A DNA stretch of 64,000 bases from assembly GCF_937951745.1 (NCBI RefSeq), contig NZ_CALFBQ010000018.1, positions 62,001-126,000 on the forward strand. Reading direction: 5' to 3'. The position numbers and the translations under genes are program-made. Of this stretch, positions 10,615-39,718 are shown piece by piece. The DNA is from an uncultured Chloroflexus sp. Its GTDB lineage: Bacteria > Chloroflexota > Chloroflexia > Chloroflexales > Chloroflexaceae. Each line of letters begins with the position of its first letter. Positions within the stretch are counted from its first letter, which is position 1. Below the pieces are notes generated by a model that saw only the letters and a list, made by a program, of their open reading frames with translations, was not told the origin of the DNA and did not search any database.

Positions 10615-12031
10615 TCCGGAAGGTTGCCACCAATCGCCCGAATTGCAATTTTGTGCCATCACTAATCGGGGTTGGCGTTTGCGGTTCGATCCGCGTGCCG
10701 TTCACCCGTGTGTGGTTGGTGCTGTTGAGATCAACGATACTCCACTGATCGCCGGTATGTACGATTTTGGCATGCTGGCGACTCACGCCACCCGACTCGC
10801 CACCGTAAGAGGTCAAGTCAATTTCGGGAAAGATGTTGCTCACCGGGTCCTCGCGTCCAATCACGTACTCGTGTTTGCCCGGCTCAAGGATAATCTCACT
10901 GCCATCAGCTAGCTCCAACCGGGCTACCGCTGGCGGTGGGGTTGGGATAGGGGTAGCAATGGGGGTTGGGACTGCCGGATGGGCGGCTACTGGCTCAGCC
11001 GGCGCTGCCGCAGGTGCCGCTGGCGTTGGGGTGCTGCCGGTCAGGGCAACGAGTTCGGCCTCAGTCTTGGCTAGTTCGGCCCGCGCTGCATCGAGACCGG
11101 CAGTGATGAATGCTGGCACGCTGCCGGCGGGATAGCGGGCAGCCATCTGCGCGTATTGAGCAATGGTGTCGCGGTGCGCCGCCAATAATGCTTCGAGCCG
11201 AGCAACCTCTGCCGGATCAGGGCCGGTGGGGAGCGCCGCCAATTCCGCCTCGGTCTTGGCCAGTTCGGCCCGTGCCGCATCGAGCCCAGCGGTGATGAAC
11301 GTCGGTACGCTGCCGGCGGGATAGCGGGCAGCCATCTGTTCGTATTGGGCGACTGTGTCCCGGTGTGCAGCCAGCAACGCTTCCAGCCGGGCACGCTCGG
11401 CTATTAGATCGATAGGTGCAACTGCTGGGGCGGCTGACGTAGCAGGCGGCGCGGGTGGTTCGGCCACTGGCGGTGCGGGTGATTCGGCCACTGGCGGCGC
11501 GGGTGATTCGGCCACTGGCGGCGCGACCATGGTTGGCCCTTCTGCCGGGATGGCTGGCGTAGGAGCTGGTGCTTCGCTTGCCGGTGGCGTATGGACGGCA
11601 ACAGGCTCTTCTACCGGCGGCGGGGCAATGACGGTAGGCGTGTCAGCGGCGGGCGGCGGGGCAAACAACCTGCTCAGGTCAGCGCCGCAATTGTCGCAGA
11701 ACCGTTCGCCGGGCAACACCGGATCGCCGCAATCAGGGCAGAAGAGTTGCGGTGCGCTAGGTGGCGCGAGCAACGTTGCCTGATCAGGTGTTATTGGCGA
11801 TGCAACTGGTGTTGCCAGCAAGTCGGCGCCGCAATTGTCACAGAACCGTTCACCGGGGAGTACCGTCGCGCCGCACACCGGGCAGGATGGCGCGAGAGCG
11901 GTAGGTTGATCGGGCGAGACGGCTGTGGGCGCGGGAGCGGTTGGCGCTGCGCCGGTTAAGCGGGTGCCGCACTGATCGCAGAAGCGGTTGGTAGGCTCAT
12001 TCTGCGCTCCACAGGAAGGACAGATGATCAT
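10607..12031 (-). CDS. Triple zinc-ribbon / FHA-domain protein with internal repeats
   Basis: Three CPxCG..FCDxCG ribbons, PPVAESPA repeats, two ~60-aa ARLEALLAAHRDTVAQYEQMAARYPAGSVP repeats, C-terminal FHA (YVIGREDP..VSRQHAKI..WSIVDLNSTNHTRVNG). Confidence 0.9.
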   Translation of the reverse strand: MIICPSCGAQNEPTNRFCDQCGTRLTGAAPTAPAPTAVSPDQPTALAPSCPVCGATVLPGERFCDNCGADLLATPVASPITPDQATLLAPPSAPQLFCPDCGDPVLPGERFCDNCGADLSRLFAPPPAADTPTVIAPPPVEEPVAVHTPPASEAPAPTPAIPAEGPTMVAPPVAESPAPPVAESPAPPVAEPPAPPATSAAPAVAPIDLIAERARLEALLAAHRDTVAQYEQMAARYPAGSVPTFITAGLDAARAELAKTEAELAALPTGPDPAEVARLEALLAAHRDTIAQYAQMAARYPAGSVPAFITAGLDAARAELAKTEAELVALTGSTPTPAAPAAAPAEPVAAHPAVPTPIATPIPTPPPAVARLELADGSEIILEPGKHEYVIGREDPVSNIFPEIDLTSYGGESGGVSRQHAKIVHTGDQWSIVDLNSTNHTRVNGTRIEPQTPTPISDGTKLQFGRLVATFRIS

Positions 12032-33907: not shown

Positions 33908-36900
33908 ATGACTAGCCGTCCAAGCCTGCCTGATCGCTGCTTTGCCGTTTGTGTTGGCGTGAATGAGTACAATCATGTCTCCGGGCTAAGCGCACTGCGC
34001 TACGCCGAGAACGATGCGCGCGCCATGGATGCGCTGCTCAACGATCTGGGCGTACCACCAGAGCATCGTCGCCTCCTTTGTGGCACCGAGGCGACACTGG
34101 CCAATGTCACCGCTGCCCTTGATGAGCTATTCGTTGACCGTGCTGGCGTCAATGATTTTCTAGTGTTCTACTTTGCCGGTCACGGCGTACCGGTCAGTTT
34201 CGATGATGGTGACCCAGAGGTCTTCCTTGCCTCGTGGGATTTTGACTACGCCCAATTACAGAAAAAGTCGTTTCGAATCAATCAGTCGCTGAGTTTACAA
34301 CGTCTGCGCAGGGATTATTTTGAGGGTGAAGGCGCGCGTAAGCGACTATTCATCCTCGATAGTTGCTACAGCGGCGATTTTCTTGGTCCCGGTTATCGTG
34401 ACAACGGGGTAACGCTGGTGCTAAGTGAGGTGAGGCGTCTGCTGCCCGGCAATGCCACTGGGCGGGCGGCGTTGGCTGCTTGCCTACCAAACAAACTGGC
34501 TCGTGAAGACGATCAGCTCCGGCACGGTCGCATGACCTACTATGTGCTGCAGGCGCTGTATGGCCACGCTCCTGATGCTCGCGAGCCAGACGGCTGGGTG
34601 ACGATACAGAGCCTGCATAGTTACCTTGATCGCAACCTCGCGCCATTTCAGCGTCCGGTGCTTAGCGGGCAATTCACGCGCATGCCACTGGTGCACTTTG
34701 AACCGCCAGCTCAGTCTACTCCGCTGCCACCGCTTGATCGTGGTGCGTATCTGCAACGGCTTATCGAACTCAACCAGCAGATTGATCTGCGTGGTTTGGG
34801 CGGGCCGGTGCAGAAACTGCCGCTTGAACGAGTCTATGTGGCGCTGAAAGCGGATGCTGCGCCGCCTGCTGAACGACGCGCCGCTGCCGGCTATGTCGAG
34901 CAACTGGTTTTGTCGCGGGCACCCGATACGTCTGATCCGTACCTCCAGCGGGCATTGATTCGCCAAACGCTGGCCCGTGGTGATCCAATCGCACTCAACC
35001 TGCTGCGCCGTTCTGTTGATGGTGACGCTACGTCGCCTGATGGTCGGCCTTCCCGTCTGAACCTCGGCGAGTTGCTGGCGCGCGAGCGGTGGGCAGTACT
35101 GCTTGGCGATCCCGGCGCCGGCAAGACCACTCTGTTGCGCTGGACGGCGCTTACCTTTGCGCAGGCATTGTTGGCGGGGCGTGAGCGGGTCGTTGTGCCT
35201 GCGGTACAGGTGTACGCTGATGAAGAGAATCCCGATCAGAAGCCAGATGTCGATCTTGGGGCTGCGCGTCTGCCGGTGCTCTTGCGCCTTGCCGACTACG
35301 AAGCGGCGCGCTGGGCGGATGGACGAGATACCAGCTTGACCATTGCTGCGTTTCTAGGCCGTCAGCCTTGGCTAGGCCAGCCGCTGTTCGCTCATGCCGA
35401 GCAGGGGGAACGGCTCTTGCACCAAGCACTGACTCACGGTCAGGCGCTGATCCTGTGTGATGGTCTCGATGAGATTGCCGATCAGACCCGGCGTGGGCGG
35501 GTGGTAGATGCGCTGACCGCATTTATCCACGAGTATGTACGTGATCCGGTGAGTGGCTACTGTCCGGTTGATGAGGATCGAAACACCGATTGGACGCTAC
35601 CGGCCGAACACGGCGGCAACCAAATTCTTATTACCAGCCGCATCGTTGGTTATTATCTGGCCCCCCTGCCCGCCACTATTCCGCATTATACCGTCGCCGA
35701 GCTAAGCGAGGTGGCTATCCGGCGCTTCTGCACAGCGTGGGGGAGTGCAGTGGCCGTAGCAACCGGTGATGCTGACCTACCGGCGCGTGTTGCGACCCTC
35801 GCGCAAGCGCTCGTTGATCGGCAGCGTCCCGATTTGCGCGAATTAGCCGGTAACCCACTCTTGCTGACCGCTTTGATCGCCCAATACGGTGCAGCGCCGA
35901 CCGATCTGCCCCGCCGCCGGGTTGAACTGTACGACCGGGTGACCGATGCCTTTTTGCGGCACCGCCCTGATGCGCTCGTCGCAATCGGGATGAAACACTA
36001 TGAACTGCGCTATGCGCTGGCACAGGTGGCGCTACGGTTGCACGCCGATGCTGACCATCCCACCGGTTTCGTTTCCTACGACGAGTTGCATGACTGGTTG
36101 ACCACGGCGCTGAAAGCGATTGCACCTTCACCGGAAAGGCAGCGGCGTGCGCGGATCGATGCTGAAGCAATCATCACGTATGTGCGTGAGGCGGCCGGGT
36201 TGTTTATGGAGCGTTGTGAAGGTATCTACGCCTTCCTCCACCGCAGTTTTCAAGAATATTTTGCAGCGCTAGCGTTGAGTTGGGACGATACCGAGGCAGC
36301 ACAGGCGATTACTGCTCGTCTCGATGACCCGGCGTGGCATGAGGTGCTGATCCTTGCCATTGCTAATCTTAGCCGTACTAAGCAAAAGCTGACAACACTA
36401 ATGCGGGCACTGATTAACGCGCCTGAACCGGCGCCGGGAATCTTGCCACGCAATGCACTGTTCATCGCTCGCTGTGTTGGTGAGCTGATCACTCCGCCGC
36501 CAGCAGAAGTCGTTGCCGAAGCGGTAGTACAGTTGGTGACTGCCTGTGCTCCCCATACATGGCCTGCCACGATCGCTGACGATACGCCCGCACCGTTGCG
36601 TGCAGCAGTGGTGACAGCATTAAAACAACTGTGGTCGCAATCCGGCGCTGTGAAAGGCATGGTTCAGGTGATGACCGATCCTGATCCAGCTCGCCGCTTC
36701 GCTGCCATTGATCTTCTGCTGGAATGTGAGCTGACACACCCTGATCTTGTACCGGTGCTGATTGTTGCAGGCCGTGATTTCGTCGAACCGACAGCAATCT
36801 TGCTCAAGGCTATCGAGCGGTATGCCGAGGTATATCCCACTGCCTTCACCCCAGCATTGCTACCGGTGCGTCGCTGGCTGCACGCCGGAGACGACGGGAT

Positions 36901-39718
36901 TGATCCGGCGTGGCGCATGCTGATCCGTGCCGTCTATAGCTTGGGATGGCGTGCGCCAGATGTGCCGCTGAACGCCGCTGAGGTGATGCTTGACTCGCCG
37001 CTCACCCCGCTGCTCGAACCGCTCTGGCAGCGGCGGGCCGCGCCGGCAGATCTGATCACGGCATTGGAAACTTACCGTGCGTCTACAACTGATCACGCGC
37101 TGATGCGTGATGTGGCTTTGGCGTTGAGTATCCTCACGGGTGCTGATTGGCGCGATCTACCGCTGCCGGTGCAACGCGCTGTTGCAGGACGCATTATTCA
37201 GCGTTGGCTTACTACTATCGCACGCCTAGAGGAACCTCTTTTCCATACCCTTTATCTTAATCTCAATCTCGACCTCGTCCGCACTCGCGATCGCGCTACT
37301 GATTTCGACCTCAGCCTCGACTTTGCCCGCTCTCGTGCCTACGCCCTTTCCCATGCTCCTAGCCGCTATGTTCGTGTCCCCGATCGTCCCTATGTTCGCA
37401 CCTACGCTTTCGCCCGTGCCTATGCCTGCGCCGCTGCTCGCGCTCGTATCCGGGCCGCTGCTCGCGCTCGTATCCGGGCCGCTGCTCGCGCTCGTGTCCG
37501 GGCCGCTGCTCGCGCTCGTATCCGGGCCCGTGCTATTGCCCACACTCTCGTCCGTTTTCACGCCATTGTCCTCGCCTTTAGCCGTGCCATCGACCGCGCT
37601 CGCACCCTCGACGGCGATCTCGATCATGCCCTTGCTCGTGTCCGCATTCGTGCTCATACCCGCGCACAAGCCCTTATCCTCGCGCGCACACGTGCCCGTG
37701 CTCTTGCCCGTACTCGTGTGCGTACTCGTGCCCGTGGGCGGGCCCGTGCCCTTGCCCGTATCCTTATCCTTACCCGCGTCCGTGCTCATGTGCGTGCCCG
37801 CGCTCGCAACCTGCTGAATACGATATGTGTTCTGATCGGTCAGTATTTAGATCGGGCTTTAGTAGAAACAGGCGTCGATCACGTATCGATTGCTCAGGCG
37901 CAGGCAGCGTTGCCCGATGTGCGCGCATTGGTAAATGAACATGGAGTGAGCGAGTGGCAGTTGGCGGTGGATGTGTTGGCAAATCAATTGGTGCAGCCTG
38001 ATGGTGCGGTGTTTGATGGTCGACGAAGGCTGACTCTGTCGGCAGATGTGACCTTGCCGTTAACAACCGAGCAGCATGCAGCCTTAGCACTGCCGAATGA
38101 GGTAAAGAAGCGGCGTGCTGTGCTGGCGCAGGTACGTGGCTGGCTTACGAGTGCCGATCCGGTCGCGCGCGCGAGTGCCAGTCTGCTGCTGCTTGAAGCC
38201 GGTGAGCGCACACCGGAATCGGTTGCTGCCGCATTAGATCTGTTGACCAGCCCACATGATCTGTTCCGCTACCGGGCGTATCGGGTGCTCGTGCGTGATA
38301 GTAACGCCGATGAGTGGTCGTTGTCAGCAATCGAGCGGCTAGCACAGGTGGCGCAGGAAGGGCATACGATTCTTGAGGGACATCTGCGCACGATGTATGC
38401 CGGCTGGGCGTTGCAGCGGATTGAGTATACGGACGCTGCTTGGATCACCGACTGGATCGCGCGGTCTGATGCGGGTGATCGGGTCAGTCGCTACATACTC
38501 GGCTCGATCCATCGCCTTGCTGAGGGGTGCTGGCCCCCACTACTAGACAATTTGCGCATCGCAAGTCCCGACACGCAGGCGGCAATTCTCACTTCGCTCT
38601 ACTGGCTCTTGCAGGCCACACCGCCTCGGCATCCGCACCTATCGGCTACGGTGGATGTTCTGCTTGGCCTGAGTGCCGCGCCGTCGCCGGTTAGCGCGAT
38701 GGCGCTGCGAGCATTAGGCTCTGCCCGCGCTCTTAGTGCAGACCAGACGGCACAGCTCTGTCAATTGGTGGAGCTGTCTGAACCGCCAGCGGCGCTGTGG
38801 GCAACGTTGGCTCGGTTGAGTAGCTTGCCCAACACTGACACTATTGCCGTTACTCTCGCTGCTGCGCCGGACATACCGGCCGTGCGTGCTGCGCGGGTAC
38901 GACGGGCGGTGCAGCAGGGTATTGCGGCAAAACGGCAAGCTATCTCGTTGGCGGAACTGACTGCAATTGTTCCTAAACCTGCTGATTGCCTTGCAGCGTT
39001 GCTGGCAGCGGGGGCTGATGAAGACCGGTGGAGTGATTACCATGAGCGGATTGCCGACGCCATTCGCGACCTGCTCGCTATCCATGACTGCCTCTTACCA
39101 GAGCTGCTTGCCCGGTTGCGAAATACTGACGCCGGATGGCCTTCGCAACGGATTGCATTGGCAGCGTTGGCACGCTGTGCAACCGCGATGCCTGAGTGGT
39201 TCAACGCGCTGGCCGCCAGTTCTGATCTGGTGTCACTATTGCTGAGCAGCGCCGTGAGTCAGGTGAGTTTCGATGCGCGTCGCTTTGCTATCACTGCCCT
39301 TGCCGCGCTACGCGAAATAACCGGTGAAGTGCTGACGGCACTCTTCCGACTCGTCGGTGACATTGTGGAATTGCAAAATGATATCATCGATGCAGCACGG
39401 CGCTTCAATCGGCTGCACCGCGACCTCGGCGAGCGGTTGCCAGACGAGTTGGTACAGGCGCTTACCGGCGAAAGCGCCGTTCGTGCCTATGTTGCCGCAC
39501 AAGTGCTCGAGGCGCTTGGCACGTCAACGGCCACTATGATCACACCCGGTCTACGCCGCCAGATCGTTGCACTGTTGGCCGATGCCCTACGTGATCCACG
39601 CAGTCGGCGCAGTGTCTGGCGTTGGAATGGGAGTGACATTGAAGAAGCTGGCACGCTCAATCAGTCCTTCTACCGCGCATTGCTGCGTGTAGCAGGATTC
39701 AAAGTAGAGAAGGAATGA
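33908..39718 (+). CDS. Caspase-like (C14) - NACHT NTPase - HEAT-like repeat protein (NLR-like STAND)
   Basis: H92/C153 dyad in VFYFAGHG and FILDSCYSGDF; Walker A LLGDPGAGKTTLLRW; Walker B LILCDGLDEIAD; NACHT FLHRSFQEYFAALAL; C-terminal HEAT-like helices. Confidence 0.93.
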   Translation: MTSRPSLPDRCFAVCVGVNEYNHVSGLSALRYAENDARAMDALLNDLGVPPEHRRLLCGTEATLANVTAALDELFVDRAGVNDFLVFYFAGHGVPVSFDDGDPEVFLASWDFDYAQLQKKSFRINQSLSLQRLRRDYFEGEGARKRLFILDSCYSGDFLGPGYRDNGVTLVLSEVRRLLPGNATGRAALAACLPNKLAREDDQLRHGRMTYYVLQALYGHAPDAREPDGWVTIQSLHSYLDRNLAPFQRPVLSGQFTRMPLVHFEPPAQSTPLPPLDRGAYLQRLIELNQQIDLRGLGGPVQKLPLERVYVALKADAAPPAERRAAAGYVEQLVLSRAPDTSDPYLQRALIRQTLARGDPIALNLLRRSVDGDATSPDGRPSRLNLGELLARERWAVLLGDPGAGKTTLLRWTALTFAQALLAGRERVVVPAVQVYADEENPDQKPDVDLGAARLPVLLRLADYEAARWADGRDTSLTIAAFLGRQPWLGQPLFAHAEQGERLLHQALTHGQALILCDGLDEIADQTRRGRVVDALTAFIHEYVRDPVSGYCPVDEDRNTDWTLPAEHGGNQILITSRIVGYYLAPLPATIPHYTVAELSEVAIRRFCTAWGSAVAVATGDADLPARVATLAQALVDRQRPDLRELAGNPLLLTALIAQYGAAPTDLPRRRVELYDRVTDAFLRHRPDALVAIGMKHYELRYALAQVALRLHADADHPTGFVSYDELHDWLTTALKAIAPSPERQRRARIDAEAIITYVREAAGLFMERCEGIYAFLHRSFQEYFAALALSWDDTEAAQAITARLDDPAWHEVLILAIANLSRTKQKLTTLMRALINAPEPAPGILPRNALFIARCVGELITPPPAEVVAEAVVQLVTACAPHTWPATIADDTPAPLRAAVVTALKQLWSQSGAVKGMVQVMTDPDPARRFAAIDLLLECELTHPDLVPVLIVAGRDFVEPTAILLKAIERYAEVYPTAFTPALLPVRRWLHAGDDGIDPAWRMLIRAVYSLGWRAPDVPLNAAEVMLDSPLTPLLEPLWQRRAAPADLITALETYRASTTDHALMRDVALALSILTGADWRDLPLPVQRAVAGRIIQRWLTTIARLEEPLFHTLYLNLNLDLVRTRDRATDFDLSLDFARSRAYALSHAPSRYVRVPDRPYVRTYAFARAYACAAARARIRAAARARIRAAARARVRAAARARIRARAIAHTLVRFHAIVLAFSRAIDRARTLDGDLDHALARVRIRAHTRAQALILARTRARALARTRVRTRARGRARALARILILTRVRAHVRARARNLLNTICVLIGQYLDRALVETGVDHVSIAQAQAALPDVRALVNEHGVSEWQLAVDVLANQLVQPDGAVFDGRRRLTLSADVTLPLTTEQHAALALPNEVKKRRAVLAQVRGWLTSADPVARASASLLLLEAGERTPESVAAALDLLTSPHDLFRYRAYRVLVRDSNADEWSLSAIERLAQVAQEGHTILEGHLRTMYAGWALQRIEYTDAAWITDWIARSDAGDRVSRYILGSIHRLAEGCWPPLLDNLRIASPDTQAAILTSLYWLLQATPPRHPHLSATVDVLLGLSAAPSPVSAMALRALGSARALSADQTAQLCQLVELSEPPAALWATLARLSSLPNTDTIAVTLAAAPDIPAVRAARVRRAVQQGIAAKRQAISLAELTAIVPKPADCLAALLAAGADEDRWSDYHERIADAIRDLLAIHDCLLPELLARLRNTDAGWPSQRIALAALARCATAMPEWFNALAASSDLVSLLLSSAVSQVSFDARRFAITALAALREITGEVLTALFRLVGDIVELQNDIIDAARRFNRLHRDLGERLPDELVQALTGESAVRAYVAAQVLEALGTSTATMITPGLRRQIVALLADALRDPRSRRSVWRWNGSDIEEAGTLNQSFYRALLRVAGFKVEKE
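37240..37810 (+). repeat. Degenerate hexanucleotide-periodic low-complexity tract inside the caspase-NACHT gene
   Basis: Runs of 6-mers such as cccgtg/ctcttg/cccgta/ctcgtg; almost all codons end in pyrimidine; encodes alternating X-(L/R/F/Y/H) dipeptides. Confidence 0.9.
37430..37525 (+). repeat. Four tandem 24-bp repeats (gccgctgctcgcgctcgtatccgg)
   Basis: 37430-37453, 37454-37477, 37478-37501 (one substitution), 37502-37525; in frame, AAARAR[IV]R x4. Confidence 0.97.

Follow-up and report, generated by a model that had tools for sequence, protein, structure and literature searches.

A degenerate hexanucleotide array in a caspase-NACHT gene of Chloroflexus: repeat turnover and a possible role in receptor diversification

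The stretch analysed here (the window, 64,000 nucleotides of contig NZ_CALFBQ010000018.1 in assembly GCF_937951745.1, from an uncultured Chloroflexus sp.) carries on its forward strand, at 33908-39718, a gene that forms one uninterrupted frame of 1936 aa and stays open straight through a long tract of degenerate 6-bp repeats. The question raised by this locus is how such a tract evolves inside a large caspase-NACHT protein and what it might do there. As for the first part, repeat turnover of the tract is well supported by sequence comparisons. As for the second, the chances look about even that the tract evolves in concert as a predicted-helical, in-frame array, follows the NACHT switch and serves as a diversifying receptor surface; here the helix, the surface and the function are what we infer, with diversification of recognition being our best guess from the sequences.

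The periodic tract and the protein that carries it

The initial annotation had placed a 6-bp periodic tract of about 190 codons at 37240-37810. Within these limits, identity at a lag of 6 nt is 0.48. It is 0.265 for the remainder of the gene, and the 64-kb window gives 0.274 ± 0.036; the top 300-bp lag-6 value of the whole window falls in the tract. At other lags, identity amounts to 0.52 (lag 12) and 0.55 (lag 24) and drops to 0.20 at lag 3. Compared with sequences in which its own codons are shuffled, the tract has z = 6.8 at lag 6 and z = 9.9 for the difference between lag 6 and lag 3; this difference is 0.286 in the tract and at most 0.014 in every other 190-codon stretch of the gene. The periodicity is thus confirmed, as are the peptide pattern given initially (A/T/V/I alternating with R, L and others) and the proposal that a two-codon period preserves the frame: the frame is open through the tract, and the indel that separates two alleles measures 24 bp (see below). 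The clean limits had to be corrected, to 37250-37810; the strongest residue alternation is found at aa 1155-1302. The tract and its parts are as follows.

37250..37810 (+), degenerate hexanucleotide tract recognised by periodicity, aa 1115-1301, about 187 codons, small residues (A/T/V/I/D) alternating with R, L or others
37430..37528 (+), recent expansion of a 24-bp unit encoding AAARARIR, 4.1 copies, 97% match, found by Tandem Repeats Finder (TRF)
37691..37760 (+), 3' part of the tract, with degenerate repeats of 6, 12 and 24 bp, also found by TRF
37226..37789 (-), antisense open reading frame (ORF) of 187 aa, a by-product of the periodicity and not a gene

The antisense ORF is open because the general array rule, (NMC NKC)n, reads GMN GKN on the opposite strand, which is incapable of forming a stop codon. 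Third codon positions in the window tract are pyrimidines in 95% of cases (C 46%, T 49%) and second positions have diverged, as expected of a C-ending array that was aged by transitions and partly re-expanded. The window copy is an old, decayed array with one fresh 4 x 24-bp expansion, and it is too decayed for the pattern GMNCKN x5, which has no match in its own genome. Another 24-bp tandem repeat (3.4 copies, 94%) lies elsewhere in the window, at 11445-11525.

The protein around the tract is organised as follows.

33908..39718 (+), host gene, a single open frame with Pfam and PADLOC matches, in the order caspase, NACHT, helical region, tract, helical C-terminal region
33938..34681 (+), caspase (Peptidase_C14) domain, aa 11-258, Pfam PF00656, motifs AGHG (H92) and DSCYSG (C153)
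35105..35473 (+), NACHT NTPase core, placed by motif positions, Walker A GDPGAGKTT (aa 400-408) and Walker B-like DGLDE (aa 518-522)
37811..39715 (+), C-terminal region beyond the tract, kept in orthologues (70% in G048, 51% in G063 and 48% in G006, from a genome search with aa 1366-1936 as the query)

The caspase domain scores above the PF00656 cut-off (E = 1.2e-10, 41.9 bits, cut-off 21.4), and both motifs of the His-Cys dyad of prokaryotic caspases (C14), AGHG and DSCYSG, are present; NCBIfam caspase_w_EACC1 gives 80.5 bits, under its cut-off of 140. Pfam NACHT scores 20 bits on the window protein, under the cut-off of 26.7, and 31.2 bits, over it, on the orthologue L032. The tract sits several hundred residues C-terminal of the NACHT module and is followed by about 635 residues. 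Its flanks had been called HEAT-like; this stays an impression, as Pfam finds no HEAT family in the window protein at E ≤ 0.1, while divergent helical repeats may be present. Judged by its domains, the host is a caspase-NACHT protein related to NOD-like receptors (NLRs), built like the intracellular immune receptors of animals and plants.

Turnover among orthologues and the pattern of substitution

Orthologues were searched for in 61 genomes (the own genome and 60 relatives), and a second search was made with the C-terminal part of the protein. The nearest relative is G048 (locus L031), with 72% identity before the tract and 65% after it, followed by G006 (L032) and by a truncated copy in G054 (L035); the C-terminal search adds G063 and remnants in G004. 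The 863-aa frame of G063 matches, together with its coordinates, locus L158 from an uncultured Oscillochloris. In L031, the closest orthologue, a stop separates two frames of 614 and 1226 aa; this copy may be a pseudogene or an assembly error.

A tract is found at the equivalent position in three orthologues (L031, L032 and L158) and in the fragment L035, with a length of 88 aa in L031, 122 in L032 and 100 in L158, compared with 187 aa in the window. Across the six orthologue pairs, flank identity is 34-65%, and the tracts align no better than permuted dipeptides (z from -0.6 to 1.0); therefore, the order of units is not conserved, only their composition. In the same test on ten NACHT-NCH2 pairs, nine range from z = -1.3 to z = 1.9, and the tenth reaches 3.6. 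Comparison of homologous tracts with their flanks, suggested as a check by the initial annotation, has thus revealed tracts of different length and order between flanks that align, and not identical tracts.

Unit loss or gain is seen most closely in G006 and G054, which share 90.7% DNA identity over 900 nt upstream of the tract. The G054 copy is without the first 24 bp (four hexamers) of the G006 array, the next 30 bp are common to both, and the sequences diverge thereafter. Since these two genomes belong to different families, the NACHT gene, so similar upstream of the tract, has probably moved horizontally, and recently. The slippage-driven diversification envisaged at first is supported as to turnover in two-codon multiples, given the differing lengths and order and the 24-bp allele difference, but not as to slippage itself, because unequal recombination leaves the same traces.

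The positions at which units differ were counted in 25 arrays comprising 1009 hexamers. Minor alleles at hexamer positions 1-6 number 69, 401, 47, 55, 377 and 62. Variation at second codon positions is about sevenfold that at third ones, and is almost only between A and C (position 2) and between G and T (position 5). Fresh orthologue arrays are near-uniform at positions 1, 3, 4 and 6, the window copy only in part (4 x 24 bp). The fraction of C at third positions is 0.83-1.0 in most tracts versus 0.13-0.54 elsewhere in the same genes, and these positions are nearly always C even in genes in which 13-30% of the remaining codons for those residues have a final C. Silent sites are uniform and second positions variable, which is the reverse of ordinary coding conservation. 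The silent uniformity is explained by fast homogenisation from a small seed. The persistence of two states at second positions suggests selection for a mixture of residues; recombination that spreads a seed which was already mixed can play a part in it too.

Related arrays in other genomes and in phages

The pattern scan of GTDB genomes was a sample, and its counts hold among the matches listed. It yielded pure microsatellites in several frames and at least 10 long arrays with a mixture of A, D, L and R, with all mixed arrays sharing one codon phase. Eight of the ten long mixed arrays lie in NACHT or NCH2 genes:

Chloroflexota: Oscillochloris L158 (the orthologue of the window gene), Promineifilum L087, Chloroflexi L122
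Other groups: Phormidesmis L153 and L172, Pseudanabaena L090, Leptolyngbyaceae L100, Thiotrichaceae L126

The remaining pair consists of L086 (Saccharothrix) and L119. When the anchored pattern was applied to 400 Chloroflexota genomes, five matched, all in NACHT genes. Altogether, NACHT arrays of the (A/D)(L/R) type occur in Chloroflexota, Cyanobacteria and one gammaproteobacterium, in at least three architectures (NACHT-array-NCH2, NACHT-FGE-array and caspase-NACHT-array). Plasmid genes of Nostoc and Allocoleopsis have longer arrays that add S, T, F, I, V and G, and the general rule NMC NKC was read from them. A search for near-identical plasmid alleles of the array-bearing Nostoc genes found none, and the strain pairs of Tolypothrix and Leptolyngbya, which are identical, concern genes without the array. 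The unit is a dipeptide, with no Pfam WD40, ANK or TPR match on the tract; for an array-bearing NACHT-NCH2 protein, the PDB offered nothing beyond a weak N-terminal match. Contigs G054:C41, G210:C21, G210:C103 (that is, L087) and L122 end inside arrays; therefore, counts of such genes are probably too low, and many copies are probably split.

Arrays of the same kind are also carried by phages. In IMG/VR, the anchored pattern is found in only ten contigs (L223-L232), in most of which the array belongs to one small phage protein family, marked by C-[ML]-E-A-x-A-x-x-A-G-E as its motif. There, the (A/D)(L/R) hexanucleotide array lies between conserved N- and C-terminal parts (the match to phrog_13065 is weak). 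Other members of the family have 12-bp arrays, (W/R/G)(D/A)AA, with almost no silent variation, and such 12-bp arrays are attached to several unrelated phage N-terminal domains (L236-L257, L258-L377, IMG/VR). The phage genes L260 and L343 are identical save for one 12-bp unit, and a second pair, 96% identical at the start, differs in length by 36 bp. These pairs show unit gain and loss directly for the 12-bp class and are no proof for the NACHT arrays. It is conceivable, albeit improbable, that NACHT receptors and the phage family share one scheme of array diversification, with the phage protein being a ligand or a decoy for the matching receptor segment; recombination would then shuffle two-state hexanucleotide codons, and each party to an arms race would gain a helical surface that varies combinatorially.

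What the array may do

According to the diversifying-surface model, tandem duplication and deletion of 6-bp blocks, by slippage or unequal recombination, would keep replacing the array, so that block turnover would change its length and order while the flanks stay conserved. Selection would retain the mix of small or acidic residues with L and R, giving a helical, solvent-exposed surface. Reshuffling of this surface may diversify what the receptor binds or how readily it is triggered, and NACHT oligomerisation and the caspase would be released once a ligand is bound.

Several observations weigh against this model. The AlphaFold models are poor (mean pLDDT 50, built with 2-4 sequences), and the helix and the surface are therefore guesses. 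Among the NACHT arrays compared, length polymorphism within a species was not seen; the closest pair of array alleles is 91% identical and comes from different families, and the G054 contig ends inside the tract. In Saccharothrix (L086:1199-2659), a similar array, (A/D)(L/R/H), 136 aa long, lies in a non-NACHT protein, beside mobilisation and relaxase-like genes and with no NACHT visible. Some NACHT-NCH2 homologues have an ordinary non-repetitive segment at the array site; therefore, this architecture can do without an array. Moreover, a spacer constrained only in composition would reshuffle too.

The last point brings in the main rival, a real if doubtful possibility, in which the array is a length-tolerant helical spacer between the NACHT arm and the C-terminal domain, subject to neutral turnover, with selection acting only on solubility and helix content. 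The wide range of array lengths (31-187 aa), taken with the loss of order, and the array-free homologues are what such a spacer would lead one to expect, and helices are predicted, at low confidence. Neutral turnover, however, should homogenise second positions like third ones, whereas they stay two-state in every array, and a single residue alphabet recurs across architectures and phyla.

It is unlikely that the tract is a selfish or decaying microsatellite, prone to slippage and tolerated in large genes of the STAND class (signal transduction ATPases with numerous domains) with no role in the protein. Pure (GAYCGY)n and similar repeats do occur in many unrelated bacterial ORFs, in different frames, and both the decayed look of the window copy and the stop in L031 would fit; mixed four-residue arrays, however, keep to a single codon phase, are concentrated in NACHT genes, contain no stop codons and preserve composition while order is lost. 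The basic nucleic-acid-binding segment proposed by the initial annotation is very improbable and was rejected. The window tract has about 47 Arg in about 190 aa and a net charge of about +36, but the tracts of its relatives are near neutral or acidic: the orthologues have charges of +10, +6 and -2, and other NACHT tracts reach values as low as -17. The strongly positive value is peculiar to the decayed window copy. Targeted mutagenesis by a diversity-generating retroelement (DGR) or a similar template-based mutator is hardly credible and was also rejected: variation is indeed confined to particular positions with two bases at each, and DGRs do diversify NACHT-linked sensors in other bacteria (PMC10907252), but the changes are A/C and G/T rather than adenine to any base, length changes in 6-bp blocks are not a DGR trait, and a search of the own genome (assembly 99.4% complete, 94 contigs) for a second tract copy as template gave only the self match.

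For the diversifying surface, the closest working model is provided by the fungal HNWD receptors (Podospora het-d/het-e), in which WD40 repeats are homogenised by concerted evolution and a few hypervariable sites are under diversifying selection (PMC12222747; PMC4986451). In both cases, a NACHT receptor has homogenised repeats with few variable sites, and gain or loss of units alters alleles. Near-identical tandem repeats lie in the C-terminal region of the receptor (in the fresh orthologue arrays, and partly in the window copy), and alleles differ in length, the 24-bp difference here being one between members of different families rather than within a species. Unlike HNWD, the unit is of two residues and not a folded WD40 blade, a conserved region follows the array, and selection is deduced from array positions alone. 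Like bNACHT (PMC12169576) and prokaryotic caspase-STAND proteins, the host has a NACHT module with Walker motifs, an N-terminal effector and a C-terminal sensing region; NCH2-type relatives carry the same array, and no tested bNACHT with such an array was found described in the reports consulted.

DGRs diversify sensors linked to NACHT defences in multicellular bacteria (PMC10907252), likewise a rapid diversification of a putative sensor; those, however, rely on mutagenic retrohoming at adenines of a C-type lectin fold, and no template copy was found here. In-frame simple sequence repeats of bacterial genes are similar in being short-period tandem DNA that changes in length. In contrast to phase-variable contingency repeats, the 6-bp unit and the 24-bp indel keep the frame, so there is no on/off switching, and positions in the unit are degenerate in a fixed pattern. 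The phage (A/D)(L/R) and (W/R/G)(D/A)AA arrays likewise have uniform synonymous and variable nonsynonymous positions, and one small phage family obeys the same hexanucleotide rule, but their proteins are small and without NACHT. Open-access literature contained nothing relevant on hexanucleotide arrays in NACHT proteins or on the peptide motifs, an absence that is a weak sign of novelty. Most likely, the tract resembles the high-internal-conservation repeats of fungal NLRs, with a dipeptide in place of a WD40-type unit.

The present data also carry a warning that assemblies break or collapse at array loci. The phage family with the same array is a candidate partner of the receptors. Rapidly evolving repeats account for much of the specificity of NLR-like receptors in animals, plants and fungi; if the diversifying-surface model is true, a dipeptide array with homogenised silent sites and variable amino acids would be among the simplest of such repeats, and it would be found in bacteria.
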